DNA of 64,000 bases from Liolophura sinensis (taxonomy: Eukaryota > Mollusca > Polyplacophora > Chitonida > Chitonidae): contig NC_088307.1 of the NCBI RefSeq assembly GCF_032854445.1, positions 3,598,001-3,662,000 on the forward strand, written 5' to 3'. Below the pieces are notes generated by a model. The model was not told the DNA's origin. It saw only the letters and a program-made list of their open reading frames with translations, and made no database searches. The translations under genes were made by a program, and so were the position numbers. Below, one piece after another: positions 4,503 to 58,424 of the stretch (position 1 is the stretch's first letter; every line of letters begins with the position of its first letter).

Positions 4503-14985
<10,483 letters not shown>

Positions 14986-15399
14986 ATGTTTTTCACACTC
15001 AAAGAAATCGTGCGTTGGCTTTGGATGACAGCATTTGAGCTGTTCTTGCACTTACTCGCTCTGTTGGTGTTCACGATACTGTTGGTGATTAAAGTGGAGT
15101 GCCCGACGTGCAGTACTGGCACATGGTGGGGCGTCTTTAGCCCACTCTTCATCTGTGATGGACTGAACGCTTATTTCTGCGTCATTGTGTTTATCCGAAT
15201 GAATGGGGAACGCGAATACCGGCGAGCAGGTTTGCGCTTTCTAGCGGCCATGCTTTGCATCAGTATGCTGTTCACCAGTAAGATCTTGATCTGTCAGAAG
15301 CTGACGGACAGAAAGCAGCTGTCCAATTCTGAAGTAATGATCCCTATGTTCCTTATGCTACAGATCATTATGGTTAGGGCATGTCAGCAGGTCCATTGA
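14986..15399 (+). CDS. TMEM203: Transmembrane protein 203
   Basis: Intronless 137-codon frame, close to the 136 residues of the human protein. It starts 'MFFTLKEIVRWLWMTAFELF' and keeps the family landmarks 'HLLALLVF', 'WWGVFSPLF', 'CDGLNAYF', 'LICQKL' and the C-terminal 'LLQIIMVRAC'-like ending. Four hydrophobic segments are visible at about residues 17-34, 48-68, 82-99 and 115-131, as expected for a four-pass membrane protein. The family is known as an ER membrane protein that affects ER calcium stores and binds STING; that is knowledge of vertebrate members, not seen here. The start is the first in-frame ATG giving full family length. It lies head-to-head with NDOR1. Confidence 0.93.
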   Translation: MFFTLKEIVRWLWMTAFELFLHLLALLVFTILLVIKVECPTCSTGTWWGVFSPLFICDGLNAYFCVIVFIRMNGEREYRRAGLRFLAAMLCISMLFTSKILICQKLTDRKQLSNSEVMIPMFLMLQIIMVRACQQVH

Positions 15400-17640: not shown

Positions 17641-20208
17641 CAGAGGTGGGGTTAAATGATTGCATGTGTGTTGGTCATCAGGAAATGTTTAATTTATTCA
17701 GAGTCGTCACTGATTGGGTGGTGTGAGAGATAGGCAAGTCCAGGCTATGCCGAGGATGTACAGCTGAAGTTTAGGTGCTTGATGACAGATTTATTTACGT
17801 ATGACGAAGGTTGAAAGTTCACTGTTATCTAGAGTCAATTCTGTAACCGGTATTTTGATGATACGTGTATGTGTTTGGCACAGAGTATTGAGCTGAGCTG
17901 AGTCAGGAGCAACAGTTCTGCATGTCGAGTTACAGATTCTTGCCACCCTGTAATAATGTCAAGTGTGTAAGGAACTCCTTTCTTATGCCATTCTCGCCAC
18001 GATATGGGTGAAATATTGCTAATCCAGCACTAAGCCATAATCATTCCTTTATTCTTAAGCCATTCTGAGAGTAAAATTTCATAATTTCTTATGAACCTAG
18101 TATTGTGAAATGGTAGATCTGTGCCTAATCTGAGAATACCTAGTGATGGATTGTATTAAAGTTATTGTCTGTGAAACAGGCCTATATATACCATCAGTAA
18201 AGAGTTATCTCTCTTAGAATAGCTCTCCTCGCAATTAATTTACATGGTACATTTGAACATGTACAAACAACATACATGTAATATGCCAGAATAAAAACTA
18301 TAAACACAATCTTTCACCAGATCATTTTAAACTGTTGTGACTATTTTCAGGGCCTAATCTTGCCCCAGAAAGACAGGGGGTGGAACCATCGGTGAAGGGA
18401 ACCTCATTGTTGAACATTTCCATTCTCATACATTTCTATCACTGTAGATAATCCGAGTCTTAAAATGAATTCAGGCTGTTTCTTTTTTTTTATGACGCAA
18501 AGGGCACTTCGAGGGAACGACAGCGTTCGGTAATCTGACGCTGAGAAGGGCTGGATTAGGCCCTGATTTTCAACCATGTCGATTCAATGGATAAGGTTAC
18601 AGGTCGCAAGTTGTTGGTATTAGCACATGTTAGGCTGTCATACAAGGAGGTCAATTTTGGAGGTTATAAGCTTTTCTTTAGAAAATTTTGTGGATAGTTT
18701 TCATTGCTGTATATGTATGGGGCCATTTTAAAATGCACTGATTTACTTCAGTGTTGTAAGGTGACACCATCAGACATGTCAGACCATATAATATCGTGTT
18801 GATATACACCTTCATGTGTTGATTTTGCTTTACCATCTGAACAGACATATAGAAAGTGATTAGAGGATTACTGACGAAGACTGCATAGATAGAGTGGTAT
18901 CTCAATTTTTTTGTCACAAGCCTATTTTGCCTTTTTAAACATTTTCTGAAAAAGAAAAAAAAAAATTTTGGCACACTAGAGTTTTTAATTATGATAACAA
19001 TGTAATGAATACTTTCCAGTCATGTAGTAAATCTGTATTAAGTTTTCCAGTCATGTAGTAAATCTGTATTAAGTTTTGTAATTGCACACAAACCTCTGTT
19101 GGACCAAGGTATATATTTACTTGTGGAATTGTGGAAATTAAACATATTCTATTTCCTTCGTTTCTTAATCACCTAAGCACATGTAAGTTTTGGTTTTGTC
19201 CTCAGTACATGCACCTTTTACCATAGCATTATTTAAAAGATACCTGTACATATTTTAAGAAAATTGATATTTCAGGCAAATTTTCACACACCTGAGATGT
19301 GGGAAATGAAGAAAAACTTACTACATACATGCATGTACCTCCTCATGTTGAATCGGGGCCTTTCATGAAGTGTTTGAGTGTGTTAAACTAGCACACGTTT
19401 TGTGGTTGGTCAGATCTGTCTCAGGACCACAGTTAGTCTGTGATAACTCATAGTTAAGTTTACAATCATTTTTCACTGTGACAGTCCCTAAATTTGTCAA
19501 AGGCAACAACAGTAAAGCAGTTGATCAATCATAAGTACAGAAGTCCTTAATGATGAAGCGGGTAGACTGAGACCAAAGCACTTGTCTGTAACCAGTGAGT
19601 TGCTGGGTTCAAATCCAGCTCTTGCAGGATTTGTTGTACCCAGATGGTTTGTCAGATTAATCAAGCAGGGTGAAATGGTATCCACTGTTAACCTGACTAC
19701 GGTTATTTGCACTCTATTAATACCTTGTTCTGATAGCCTTTTTGCACATTTTACATCTGTAATTAATTACTGCACATGTTGTTACATGTACATATTTTAT
19801 ATATAACAAAAAAATAAAATGATGTTTTAATGTACATGTGAATAGATGTATATTTTTAGTTTAAGCACAGAGATTTGACAACTCACAAAGTTTGGCTGAT
19901 GGCAAAGATGAGTTTTCATCTGAAATTGTCTTTTATTGTGTTGATAGATTAAGGAGAGTTGGAGTCACTATATGCATGAGCCTGGGCATATTGAGATCAC
20001 ACAGACTGCCATGTGTATGTATACGCTACATCGGATACTCTTGACATATGCTGCTACGTGCATACACCATTCCTAAGGAAGAGATTTCAATATACTCAGC
20101 TATATTTCATAAGTAGAAAATAATATATTTGCTTCGGTTCACCTAGTCTATGCTAGTTCATGATTTTGGGTGCATCTGTATGTGGATGTACTATGTATAT
20201 TTAATATA
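17641..20208. other. Intergenic DNA without a recognised gene
   Basis: No ORF has family landmarks. A 31-bp direct duplication ('CCAGTCATGTAGTAAATCTG' core) is at about 19010-19077. A tRNA-like segment is at 19560-19640 and is listed separately. Confidence 0.45.
19555..19645 (+). mobile_element. tRNA-like segment, possibly the head of another SINE family
   Basis: Contains a B-box-like 'GGGTTCAAATCCAGCT' preceded about 50 bp upstream by an A-box-like 'AAGCGGGTAGACTGAG'. No complete cloverleaf could be drawn, so a working tRNA gene is unlikely. Confidence 0.35.
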
Positions 20209-47200: not shown

Positions 47201-47815
47201 CAAACAAATCATTTTAATCTTAAACTGCACTGAAAAAACAGTATTCCATATATCAGACACTTGAATTTATTTTATTTATTTGATTGGTGTTTAATATATT
47301 TCACTTATACGATGGCGACCAGCATTATGATGGGAGGAAAACGGGCAGACCCCAGTGGAAACCCACAACCATCCGCAAGTTGACGGACTGTGAAGCAATC
47401 TGTGCTATATTTTGATCATAAACATTAAAAATAAACATCATATTACAACTTCACACAACAAATTTTTCTGATTTACAATCCTATGATCAAATAAACATGC
47501 ATATGCTTTAAGTTGCACTTTAATTGCAACCGGTCTGCCCGCAACCTGTGGGTGGTCGTGGGTTTCCCTCAGGTTCTGCCTAGTTTCCTCTCACCATAAT
47601 GCTGGCCGCCATCGTATAAGTGAAATATTTTTGAATACGGTGTAAAACACCAATCAAATAAATAAATTAACTGCAACTGAACGGCCACTTACCCAAGTTC
47701 CAGCCTTGACCTTGACCTTGTTAGCATCCAATTTGACCTTGGTGAGGTCAACCTCTGGAACAGGCTTCAGGTCTGCCTCCATCTTCCACAATGGTATCTG
47801 GTTCAAATCAGTCAT
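41235..47815 (-). CDS. ABHD14-like alpha/beta hydrolase, soluble copy (copy B)
   Basis: Coding exons: 47693-47815, 46272-46434, 44130-44338, 41235-41429; 690 nt, 229 residues plus stop, all junctions GT/AG and in phase. The start at 47815 gives 'MTDLNQIPLWK'; an in-frame ATG at 47782 is the alternative. There is no hydrophobic anchor. After a 40-residue leader the hydrolase core matches copy A: 'QDVLLLHGASFSAQNW', elbow 'VSPSASG' (middle Ser about 125), 'YGEKD' (Asp about 176), 'GGHAAY' (His about 203). Length is close to soluble ABHD14B (210 residues in human), for which a CoA-dependent lysine deacetylase activity has been reported. The last coding exon is about 94% identical to copy A at the DNA level, so the pair arose by a late duplication or was homogenised. 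The introns hold a 23-bp array, a 1.4 kb composite array and several SINEs. Confidence 0.87.
42308..42832. repeat. 23-bp minisatellite in the last intron of ABHD14 copy B
   Basis: About 23 units of 'TGTAGCTGCTCCACTGTATT' plus 'GAG'. All three minus frames stay open because 23 bp cycles through the frames every 69 bp, which explains the overlapping 144-176 codon ORFs. Copy A has no such array here. Confidence 0.95.
42840..44100. other. Intron DNA of ABHD14 copy B, no further exon seen
   Basis: Lies between the last two coding exons of copy B. The ORFs at 43216, 43391, 43483 and 43872 have no recognised features. Confidence 0.45.
44645..46030. repeat. Composite purine-rich array with 143-bp higher units in ABHD14 copy B
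   Basis: Built on a short motif such as 'GAAAACCAGGCAGAGGATGA'. Between about 44988 and 45420 the sequence is organised in 143-bp units carrying 'AGCCAGACGGAAGATCTCAT' and 'CCCTCCAATCTTAG' (starts near 44988, 45131, 45274 and a shortened one near 45369). A SINE fragment interrupts it at 45553-45682. The homologous place in copy A (about 32600-32760) holds only a few diverged units. Confidence 0.9.
45553..45682 (+). mobile_element. Headless SINE 3' module inside the composite array
   Basis: Plus-oriented from 'AACCTGCGGATGGTCGTGG' to 'AACACCAATCAAATAAATAA'. The purine-rich array continues on both sides. Confidence 0.85.
46482..46577. repeat. About 50-bp direct duplication
   Basis: Two copies holding 'AATGATAATCAAATGGCATA' lie just upstream of the second coding exon of ABHD14 copy B on the gene's strand. 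Confidence 0.85.
46927..47058 (-). mobile_element. Diverged SINE 3' module
   Basis: Minus-oriented fragment with 'GAAGAATATTTCACTTATGC' and 'ACCCACGACCATCTACAGG' in the first coding intron of ABHD14 copy B. Confidence 0.65.
47085..47250. repeat. Copy of the MITE-like core seen at 27955-28170
   Basis: Shares 'CCAATATTTTGAAACATTCT', 'AAGAGAACTAT' and 'TCTTTAATGACA' in order with 27980-28080. The inverted right end is not evident here. Confidence 0.5.
47268..47668. mobile_element. Possible second foldback with SINE-module arms
   Basis: A minus-oriented headless SINE module at 47268-47388 faces a plus-oriented one at 47527-47668. The interior keeps a mirrored 'TTTGATCATA' / 'TATGATCAAA' pair. 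The apparent centres differ by about 18 bp, explained by a deletion of about 16 bp in the left arm ('GGTGTTTAATATATTTCAC'). Confidence 0.5.
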
Positions 47816-47943
47816 GTGATTGAATATTCAGTGTGATAACAACACATCACTTGAGAGATTCTAGAATAGTGAGGTCCAATAAATTGCAATTAACATCATT
47901 GAATTCTTATGCCTACTGTAAACCTTCAACCTTTTCAACTACT

Positions 47944-48208
47944 GTTTATTTATTTATTTGATTGATGTTTTACGCCGTACTCAAGAATATTTCACTTATA
48001 TGACGGCAGCCAGCATTATGGTTGGAGGAACCGGGCAGTGCCCTAAGGAAACCCACAACCATCCGCAGGTTGCTGGGAGACCTTCCCACTTACGGCCGGA
48101 GAGGAAGCCAGCATGAGCTGGACTTGAACTCACAGCGACCACATTGGTGAGAGGCTTCTGGGTCATTATGATGCACTACCGCGCTAACCAACTGAGCCAG
48201 GGAGGCCA
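47944..48208 (-). mobile_element. Full-length SINE with 13-bp target-site duplication
   Basis: Complete minus-oriented copy with AAAT-type tail, body and tRNA-like head ('TGGCTCAGTTGGTTAGCG'). 'CTTTTCAACTACT' flanks it exactly at 47931-47943 and 48209-48221. It lies in the 5' intron of ABHD14 copy B, just upstream of the first coding exon. Confidence 0.93.
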
Positions 48209-49605: not shown

Positions 49606-50521
49606 TATATCAGTCACCACTGTACCAAATACTGGACTGGAATTTGGAACAACGCCAGGGTGACCAGGATCAAGATGATGAATGATACAGAGGTTGATCT
49701 GACCAAAAAAAAAAATTTTCAACCGTAATTGTTTCCATTGATACTTGAGACTTATGCATTCCATTTAGGCCTTTTTTTAATAATGCAAAACATGATTTAA
49801 ACCGATCTTGGCATCAAAACAGACGTTCCAGCCGTTAACCAAAATGGTCGTTTCGGGACAATAAACACGTGATCAATTTCCAAAACAGCGTTCAACTCAT
49901 ACCACCAAAGAACTGAGTCCATGTATACAAAGTACGAGGAGAAGTTAATCGTTTCCACGCAATGATGATGGAAAGACGCAAGGTGTGTTCTAGGGGAGTA
50001 AATCGCTAAACCCGTATCCAAAATTTGCACCGTGCTAGTTTATAAGTAAATCGACAATGGACTATAATTTCAAGCACGTTTACTGGCGAATGCCGATAAT
50101 AATTGGTTAAGCCCACGTGAGTACATTGTTTTTGTGCTTAGGCTAGGCCTAAGTGTTTTCGGTACTGTAGCTCTCCTACTCGGGTCCTGATGACGGACAG
50201 CTAGACACAGTAGAAGTGGCAGACAAACATATGGCGGATCCAGTTCAATCCAAAACTTGGCAACGGGGCGGGTTTCAGATGGAAAGAGGAGTTCTCGTAA
50301 GGACCATAAATGTTACAAGCATACGAAACTGTGGTACATAGCTATACTTCAATCCACAGAAAGGCCAAGCAAATTCAACTTTAGTGAAAACAGACATTTC
50401 TGTGACAAGCACGTACAAGCTCTTAAAACAGCACTGGGTCTAGCGCGCAAATGCGATTAATGTGAGTTTAAGTTCAGCACAATCTGCCGGTAGAACATTA
50501 CAGAGTCAAAGTAAGTTAATT

Positions 50522-51052
50522 TCTTTATTTGTTTTAGTGGTGTTTTGTACGCCATACTCAAGAAAGTTTCACTTATAGGACGGCGACCAGCATTATGGTG
50601 GGAGGAAACCAAGCAGAAACCCACGAACATCAGCAGGTTGCTAGCAGGCTTTCCCATGTACACTCAAAAAATAATCTGGTAATTTTAAGAGAAAGTCTGT
50701 TGTCTGAGTGATGCTAGAATGTATTCTGTTATTGCAGCAGATTATTCTGTTAAACATAACACACATATTCTATTAATTCAACAGAAATCTTCTGTTAGAC
50801 TAGACGGGGTATTATGTTAAATATGACAAAATATTGTGTTACAATAACAGAATACATTTTAGCATTACTTAGACAACAGATTTTCTGTTAAAATAACAGA
50901 TTAGGCCTAATTTGTTGAGTACATGGGGGCAGATCTGCTAGCAACTTGCGGATGATCGTGGTTTTCTGCCCGTTTTTCTCACACCACAATGCTGGTTACA
51001 ACAAGTGAAATATTCTTGAACAAGGTGTATAAAACGCCAATCAAATAAATGA
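50522..51052. mobile_element. 530-bp foldback element with SINE-module outer arms
   Basis: The left half (50522-50661) is a minus-oriented SINE 3' module and the right half (50919-51052) a plus-oriented one. Between them lie about 130-bp inner arms that mirror each other ('GTCTGTTGTCTGAGTGATGC' left, 'GCATTACTTAGACAACAGA' right; 'AATGTATTCTGTTATTG' left, 'CAATAACAGAATACATT' right). Paired landmarks all centre on about 50790. No coding capacity was seen and flanking duplications are unclear. Confidence 0.8.
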
Positions 51053-51173
51053 ATATATAAACCAGCATCGACTATGTAATGTTCCACCAACGATTCTCGG
51101 TTAAACAGTTAAAGACCAGTTAAATTACCAGTTAACCTTCATATTCTTCTTGTCATGGGATCTGAAAACCTGC

Positions 51174-51260
51174 CAGGTTTCCACCCACCATAATGCTGGC
51201 CGTCGCCGTATAAGTGAAAAAACTCTTGACAATGATTTAAAACCCAAATTAAATAAATAA
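51174..51260 (+). mobile_element. Short SINE 3' fragment
   Basis: Plus-oriented remnant with 'CCATAATGCTGGCCGTCGCC' and a decayed tail. Confidence 0.65.
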
Positions 51261-52784
51261 AGAAAATCTGAATCCGTAAAAATGGACACAAACAAAAGTA
51301 TAGGTATGCTGACCATAAATGTGTTAATTTTCCTATTTTTATAAAAAAAATTGCCGATGTGGGGTTAAGCAATAACCATTCATTCATGAAACAAATATAT
51401 CACAAGATGTATGACATTGTTTGCTCACAAATAAATGTTAGTAGAACAGGTATAGACATTTTTAAAAGTTAAATCTATATAGCGATATTTGAAATTGAAA
51501 TATTACAACATCTGCTTTGGTGGGTAATATCATAGGAAACTATTATATACTATTGTATATATGGGAAGTAGTTCGTGCGAAACTGAATGCGCATATATGA
51601 ATACGCACGTATGCAGAGAAACGGTCCAGAAAGCATAATTTGTGGACCATACATTTAAAATATTCAGTATGATAGGCATTTGATCACACCCAATAGTGAG
51701 ATATACGCGTATTCTTTAGTATAACGAAGGATTGGCCTTTGACGTCACTACAATGGGAAAATGAAGGCTTAACATCAATAATGACGATATCCAATATGCT
51801 GCCAAAAACAGATCATAGAAACCTTCTACACATAAGGAAAAATTTTTTTTTGACAAATGAATATATATCTGAATATTTCGAAGAGCTGTAAGATTAAATT
51901 TAAGAACCTTTTAAGATTAAATGAATTACGAAATACACGTATTGTCGTTTTAATTATCTTTGGCCTTGACTGACTGATTTCCATATCGACCATCAGCAAC
52001 CCGAAGTTGTTTTAGCCATATTTTTCCAGGGAACTCTTATACATTTACACTTCTTAAATAGAAATACAGGCACCTTTCTTAACGATTATAAATAGCGCCT
52101 TAGAGATGGGTGTATACATAATATCACCTAGGCATTATTTTATAGACATATTCATTCGCTGGAACTTAGTATGACATTGTGTGGAAAAAGTCAAGGATAT
52201 AGAAAAATGTGAATATACTGTATACAAAAAATATTGGGACAAAAGACAAAGGCAATATACATGATGTACGCAATATACATGTACGCATGCATGAGTGTGA
52301 ATTTGACTTTTATGCTACAACCTACTGGGATCTAAGCTAAGGAGAGCAAAACCAGTAAAGAGCCATCAGTCTGATACTTGAACACAAGGAGCAATCGAGG
52401 GCGCCGCCATGTTATCCGTTTTAAGTAATCAGGCGCAAGTTTTTCTATAACCCGAAGACGCAGCTATTTCCGCTAACGTCACCCAAATTCTGTTTTGCCT
52501 TTAATGATGTGGCCCTAGGGTGTACAAGCGACGCGAAATCGCGTTTCCGGTTGTTTAAACATGGAGCATTCCATGGTCGCACAGGAATTCCTGATTAAGA
52601 GTTGATTTATACAGTTACCAAGGAAGTCCATTTTCACCCCTCTTCCGAAATAACTCAAGATGTATTATTTGTTGATTGTCTTTCTTTTAATTATAGGCAT
52701 GAGGCGATAGCGCCATGTAGATGCAAATACAATTCTTCCGTGATATAAATTTGTTATTCCTGTGCCTGGCTTAGGTCAGATTAT
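51261..52784. other. Intergenic DNA without a recognised gene
   Basis: AT-rich, no supported ORF or array. A short plus-strand 'GCCGCCATG' near 52405 starts a frame of only a dozen codons. Confidence 0.45.

Positions 52785-58165: not shown

Positions 58166-58244
<79 letters not shown>
58163..58244. repeat. (AT)n microsatellite
   Basis: About 40 AT units in a row, just before the TTTA-rich tail of a minus-oriented SINE. Confidence 0.98.
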
Positions 58245-58247
<3 letters not shown>

Positions 58248-58253
58248 TGTCTA

Positions 58254-58266
58254 CTCTTGTTAATAT

Positions 58267-58301
<35 letters not shown>

Positions 58302-58424
58302 TTTTCACTGATGTTTTATGCAGGAAATACTCAGAAATATTTCACTTATACGACGTTCGCCAGCATTATGATGGGAGGACACTAAGCACAGTCCGGGGAG
58401 ACTCACGACCATTCACAGGTTGCC
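58254..58424 (-). mobile_element. Headless SINE copy with long (ATTT)n tail
   Basis: Minus-oriented, with 'GAAATATTTCACTTATACGA' and 'CGACCATTCACAGGTTGCC'. The tail is eleven or more TTTA units. Confidence 0.8.

Follow-up and report, generated by a model that had tools for sequence, protein, structure and literature searches.

In yeast, inverted repeats that anneal in cis give rise to fold-back inversions and inverted duplications, as set out in the portions cited here of three reports (PMC7467729, PMC10164571, PMC6103520). In great apes, short-range template-switch mutations, for which a four-point model has been formulated, lead to the insertion of inverted copies (PMC7954356, in the part cited). 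A different kind of composite is represented by MER6 of mammals, which is a MITE that acquired the domain of a V SINE and underwent amplification (cited portion of PMC6887750), and the genomes of bivalves carry V, Meta, Deu, MIR, and Core SINEs (cited portion of PMC10294476).

The locus described here, which brings together a MITE, a SINE, and what appears to be an inverted copy of neighbouring DNA, lies in a stretch of 64,000 nucleotides (hereafter, the window) in the 609 Mb assembly of Liolophura sinensis (C13:3598001-3662000; NC_088307.1). We assign a probability of about 0.68 to the reading that a MITE inserted in one SINE and that fold-back from the MITE terminal inverted repeats (TIRs) then copied the SINE tail and its flank, inverted, leftwards. 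Such an event would resemble the yeast fold-backs in that it yields an inverted copy of neighbouring DNA, and the yeast system, as the cited portions describe it, tolerates spacers and imperfect repeats; the difference is that large chromosome rearrangements after breaks are described there, whereas here approximately 170 bp would have been rejoined nearby, with a MITE as the primer, and the event is read from a fossil. As with the template switches of apes, an inverted copy of nearby sequence would be made, replication would return close by, and an inverted repeat would be left behind; unlike the gold-standard ape events (median 12, maximum 128 copied bases in the cited part of PMC7954356), the copied tract would amount to approximately 170 bases and would have been seeded by a transposon hairpin. 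A TA-flanked MITE in contact with a SINE module is a trait in common with MER6; however, the SINE of MER6 lies inside the TIRs of an amplified composite (PMC6887750, cited portion), whereas here the SINE is located beyond the TIRs, and the searches gave no further composite. The SINE itself appears to be like the tRNA-headed SINEs of bivalves and other molluscs (PMC10294476, cited portion) in its tRNA-like head, central body, A-rich repeat tail, and many 5'-truncated copies. No described MITE-primed inverted duplication of flanking DNA was recognised in the excerpts of the literature searched, which is not proof of absence.

Extent and anatomy of the palindrome

A single self-alignment (50489-50786 against 50790-51088) delimits an imperfect palindrome of approximately 600 bp, spanning 50489-51088, within which a repeat search detected three nested pairs of inverted arms around 50788.5: an inner pair at 50679-50761/50815-50897 (82%), a middle pair at 50586-50672/50910-50996 (77%), and an outer pair at 50489-50574/51003-51088 (74%). 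By alignment, this centre is common to all mirrored landmarks, much as a preliminary description of the window had it (a single centre near 50790). The same description gave the extent as 50522-51052; the symmetry of that interval holds, whereas the true palindrome is approximately 33 bp longer on each side. An artefact of assembly or of read fold-back is unlikely because the palindrome arms are approximately 21% different. From left to right, the locus comprises the following features (window coordinates):

50450-50486, plus strand: head remnant of the putative original SINE, immediately before the left edge of the palindrome; corresponds to consensus 65-101, 28/37 identical
50489-50521, minus strand: apparent inverted copy of the SINE 3' flank, outer part of the left arm; 50489-50507 mirrors 51070-51088 at 17/19
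50522-50658, minus strand: left arm, an inverted SINE tail that begins at the internal base CATGGG; 25/119 non-CpG differences from the right arm
50659-50660: TA, left MITE end; the family consensus begins TACACTC
50661-50919: MITE bearing long TIRs, approximately 2 bp short at its right end; 39 other scored genome copies
50920-50921: TA, right MITE end
50922-51057, plus strand: right arm, tail of the putative original SINE
51058-51088, plus strand: SINE 3' flank, putative template of the inverted flank 50489-50521, which mirrors it; 19-mer without other exact genome match

The junctions thus read CCCATG-TA, MITE, TA-CATGGG, with approximately 2 bp absent from the right MITE end. Both SINE arms begin at the same internal base, next to the TA of the MITE, an observation already made in the preliminary description. 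The locus is a composite and apparently single-copy.

Inverted SINE pairs as such are common in the window, with three others within 1.5 kb. At 47293-48030, three SINE copies of alternating orientation make up two inverted pairs, with arms spaced 159 and 252 bp apart and no MITE at the centre. Overlapping inverted repeats of 61-69 nt with 71-72% complementarity, which are probably simple-repeat-like, occur at 58168-58302, and a further 5'-truncated plus-strand SINE piece is located at 51140-51270, to the right of the palindrome and outside the mirror.

The inner MITE and its other copies

The inner part of the palindrome (50661-50919) belongs to a separate TA-flanked MITE family. When the whole 531-bp query was run against the genome and the best 40 of 8,803 candidates were scored, 39 other MITE places were hit, with all of their matches inside query positions 133-405, i.e., the inner part; the one match of another kind was a SINE tail approximately 205 bp from one of these MITEs, that of L008, a locus considered below. 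The MITE consensus, 256 bp long, has arms whose outer 76 bp are fully complementary (0 mismatches in 76, from the aligned copies), and its terminal 25-mer has 309 + 288 genome matches at no more than one mismatch, compared with 0 for the control. From 100 of these 597 matches, 80 stretches were made, which gave 57 further MITE copies; 23 of the 80 loci were dropped as the second TIR was not recognised, and some of the 57 that were kept have a loose second TIR (e.g., L149). TA is present at the left MITE end in 51/57 copies with an exact right end and at both ends in 15 of the 39 older copies, and no strong target preference beyond TA was seen among the 39 and 57 copies. In the series L081-L160, members with the same MITE ends range from 64 to 514 bp in apparent length, the second TIR being sometimes a loose match, and given this spread, the family may have internal variants.

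The copy within the palindrome differs from the consensus at 20 of 258 non-CpG sites (7.8%; the median of the other 39 copies is 9.3%). Its loop retains the asymmetric sequence typical of the family, and the interval 50658-50916 is predicted to fold as one long hairpin (z -11). SINE pieces occur within approximately 500 bp at 10 of the 39 other MITE loci. No comparable mirrored flank was found at the 96 other MITE copies: the inverted-flank alignment score is 77 at the palindrome, compared with a best of 19 (n=39) and 22 (n=57) at other copies of its MITE, and the score of 22 reflects pieces of SINE-like sequence whose distances, 175 and 262 bp, are unequal.

Among these 96 copies and the palindrome, a SINE tail (score at least 50) lies within about a base of the MITE only at the palindrome, L008, and L094. 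At L094 (G000:C1:81300808-81301663), the same MITE stands inside a SINE at a TA, with nothing mirrored; one side of the MITE carries SINE consensus 215-260, which leads away from it (score 52), and the opposite side carries the preceding part, 177-214, from the MITE end onwards (score 28). L094 was rejected as a one-armed relative of the palindrome and is an ordinary MITE-in-SINE insertion. At L008 (G000:C6:41981074-41982420), a MITE with an altered right end is followed, one base on, by a 5'-truncated SINE tail that leads outwards (144-264); this locus was likewise rejected as a one-armed relative, its left side being without SINE. The preliminary description had envisaged copies with only one arm, whereas L008 and L094 touch a single SINE tail at consensus 144 and 215, respectively, unlike the break of the palindrome, and lack any mirror. 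A MITE insertion hot spot at the SINE base in question was also considered and rejected: a pattern combining MITE end and SINE gave 46 matches (control 7), the best of which was the left junction of the palindrome, and most of the others are, by eye, variants of the SINE head or ends of the MITE next to different flanking sequence.

A separate observation concerns L124 (G000:C4:21130662-21131517), where inverted flanks of 28 bp, which start one base outside both TIRs, are identical at 20/28 positions. Their score of 14 equals the maximum of 3192 cross-locus pairs (first 60 bp) and is borderline after 57 tests; L124 is a possible small second case of a mirrored flank.

SINE arms, head remnant, and mirrored flank

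Both arms are tails of a SINE whose full-length form, represented by copies in the window and in the genome, bears a tRNA-like head (judged by eye) and which presumably resembles mollusc SINEs. The string of the SINE tail had no literal occurrence in the literature searched, which carries little weight. The same 10 bp are absent from both arms; the exact deletion occurs in 0/35 unselected copies spanning that site and in 9/45 SINE copies of a set mostly chosen by arm similarity, from which it follows that a minor SINE subfamily exists. The derived substitutions common to both arms number 2, compared with a chance expectation of about 1 to 1.5, a common clade of the arms is neither supported nor rejected by the tree (AU p 0.47), and neither arm lists the other among its best 40 scored genome matches. 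Judged by substitutions, the arms are therefore not clearly sisters; these results lend no help to a common origin, which they would allow if the duplication took place soon after SINE insertion. The left and right halves differ at 25/119 SINE, 8/31 flank, and 10/74 MITE-arm positions, the last being a column-based count that replaced an alignment poor at its outer end (15/74). SINE and flank arms together (33/150) do not differ significantly from the MITE arms (10/74; Fisher p 0.15); without the flank, p is 0.25, and another comparison gave p 0.27.

According to the preliminary description, many headless SINE copies begin near the same point as the arms, which was not borne out. Only 3 of the unselected copies reaching the tail (n=51) start within 6 bp of the break base, and 6 are full length; in the arm-similar set (n=38, as 2/40 loci, L058 and L059, are without SINE and were left out of the SINE alignment), the break accounts for 4 starts within 6 bp. 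Ten of these 38 copies start at 106-120 of that query, which may point to a loosely defined zone of truncation where head and body meet. The 5' ends of unselected truncated copies (window and MITE loci) bunch at consensus 132-139 (11/51), which could reflect a truncation zone or a second family with the same tail.

The head remnant at 50450-50486 scores 38, compared with 29 for the best of 100 shuffles. A gapped head alignment scores 40 (best of 500 shuffles, 32) and extends to 50498, inside the palindrome, where it would make part of the mirrored flank SINE-derived. Among 2312 overlapping tiles of the window, three SINE heads lack a SINE tail within the 500 bp tested, namely this one and those at 19526-19690 and 14961-15125, and no SINE head was found to the right of the palindrome or on the other strand. 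With a plus-strand head at the left edge and none at the right, the simplest reading is that the left head and the right tail are parts of a single SINE, which would have been split by the MITE and the inverted tract with a loss of approximately 16 bp of SINE at the junction. A possible SINE target-site duplicate, 50424-50433/51058-51067, matches at 9/10 positions and is weak (shuffle p 0.16).

Beyond the SINE tails, 50489-50507 mirrors 51070-51088 at 17/19 bases in the register set by the arms. The score of this mirrored flank, 28, was equalled by none of 1081 control pairs (best 24; 18 with the offset limited to 3) drawn from the 47 other SINE 3' flanks that passed an anchor and length filter. 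The flank 19-mer in degenerate form has two exact genome matches, both at the palindrome, and five more at one mismatch (control 3), and the genome search revealed no repeat family to which the outer 19-mer belongs. On account of this match and of the lack of a visible repeat family, the flanking DNA appears to be present in a second, inverted copy. Independent insertions of SINEs do not duplicate a flank in this way, and the ends of a mobile family should also occur elsewhere. Thus, two independent SINE insertions explain the arms badly, as the preliminary description had argued from the symmetry, because the mirror runs into non-SINE flank without other exact genome match. Directly outside 50489 and 51088, where a mobile foldback element should have a target-site duplication, none was found by eye.

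Origin of the palindrome

The anatomy can be read as a sequence of three steps. A tRNA-derived SINE would have been present in plus orientation, as the left head remnant and the right tail suggest, and a TA-flanked hairpin MITE would then have inserted into it at GTA|CATGGG. The family of the MITE, the TA on both sides, and the break base are observed at the locus, and both halves would stem from one SINE; L094 shows the state expected after this second step. Later, or during failed excision, a strand ending in the left TIR may have folded back onto the right TIR and been extended outwards through the SINE tail and approximately 30 bp of 3' flank, i.e., approximately 170 bp altogether, after which the copied tract would have been joined to the SINE head, at the cost of approximately 16 bp of the SINE. 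The trigger could, by conjecture, have been cleavage of the left MITE end by a transposase. The product, head - inverted flank and tail - MITE - tail - flank, would not move as a unit. We infer these steps from the anatomy, and such events are a known class. No gap in the palindrome separates the MITE TIRs from the SINE arms, which counts for TIR priming because TIR priming predicts such continuity. The mirror in the flank, the plus-strand head on the left, the 10-bp deletion common to both arms, the retained MITE loop, the hairpin fold, and L094 all argue for a MITE-primed duplication. Against it stand the few derived substitutions in common, the lack of mutual listing among the best 40 matches, the occurrence of the 10-bp deletion elsewhere, the weak target-site duplicate, the gapped head alignment that enters the palindrome, and the lack of a second clear case at 96 other MITE copies, as well as the arm differences (33/150 vs. 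10/74), which at face value are the reverse of what an earlier MITE predicts, although the difference is not significant.

This last point bears on the order of events. If the palindrome arose first, fold-back at the 4-bp palindrome GTAC in the SINE would have produced a head-to-head SINE with the centre CCCATGTACATGGG, and the MITE would later have hit the central TA. The empty site would indeed have TA at the centre of a perfect 14-bp palindrome, and divergence is, if anything, greater between the arms of SINE plus flank than between those of the MITE; as the point estimates lean to arms older than the MITE, this order stays a rival, with the reservation on significance given above. However, the MITE must then have struck the central TA exactly, with no strong target preference beyond TA among the 39 and 57 copies, and MITE-free SINE palindromes were not found elsewhere. 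SINE head-to-head dimers as a class were rejected, since CCCATGTACATGGG is not enriched (3 places, compared with 11 for the control) and no SINE was matched at the three sites, L040, L058, and L059. We therefore regard a palindrome older than its MITE as unlikely. A coincidence, in which two SINEs inserted independently in opposite orientation around or beside the MITE and the mirrored flank is a chance match, draws on the density of SINEs and of their inverted pairs elsewhere in the window, on the single SINE tails that touch MITEs at L008 and L094, and on the same scarcity of common derived substitutions and missing mutual listing among the best 40 scored matches that weigh against a duplication. 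It nonetheless demands an identical break base on the two sides of the MITE, a 10-bp deletion common to both arms (0/35 unselected copies), a 17/19 in-register flank match (0/1081 controls), and an unrelated plus-strand SINE head at the palindrome edge, and such a conjunction appears improbable.

The preliminary description had favoured a single mobile palindromic element of approximately 530 bp, with SINE-module arms, that carries or donated the headless SINE copies. The symmetry of the locus itself would suit such an element, and a MITE carrying a SINE domain is known from MER6 (PMC6887750, cited portion). However, the genome search and consensus of the inner arm yielded a MITE family that, on the copies scored, occurs across the genome without the SINE module, the very outcome that the preliminary description had named as a refutation; mirrored SINE arms are present in 0/39 of the other scored copies, and among the best 40 scored matches for each junction, a match of more than 12 bp crossing it occurs at 0/39 and 0/39 other places. 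Moreover, the outer ends have no other exact genome match, unselected copies show no concentration of headless SINE ends at the break, and a full-length SINE with a tRNA-like head of its own exists. A mobile foldback element is thus very hard to reconcile with the genome, and we give it almost no credence.

With the MITE-primed duplication as the preferred reading, 50489-51088 is probably a neat fossil rather than a surprise. The locus illustrates how a nested insertion, combined with a single fold-back, can mimic a novel class of foldback element; the two can be told apart if the mirror is traced beyond the repeats into unique flanking DNA and the displaced half of the host element is sought. 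A more general proposition, that the TIRs of MITEs prime the copying of host flank by fold-back again and again and that new long-armed palindromes thereby grow outwards from MITE insertions, with 50489-51088 as a clear fossil and L124 as a possible small second case, is at present unlikely. Should such events prove recurrent, MITEs would give rise to hairpin loci and long palindromes, the latter being possible hairpin-RNA or longer-TIR loci.
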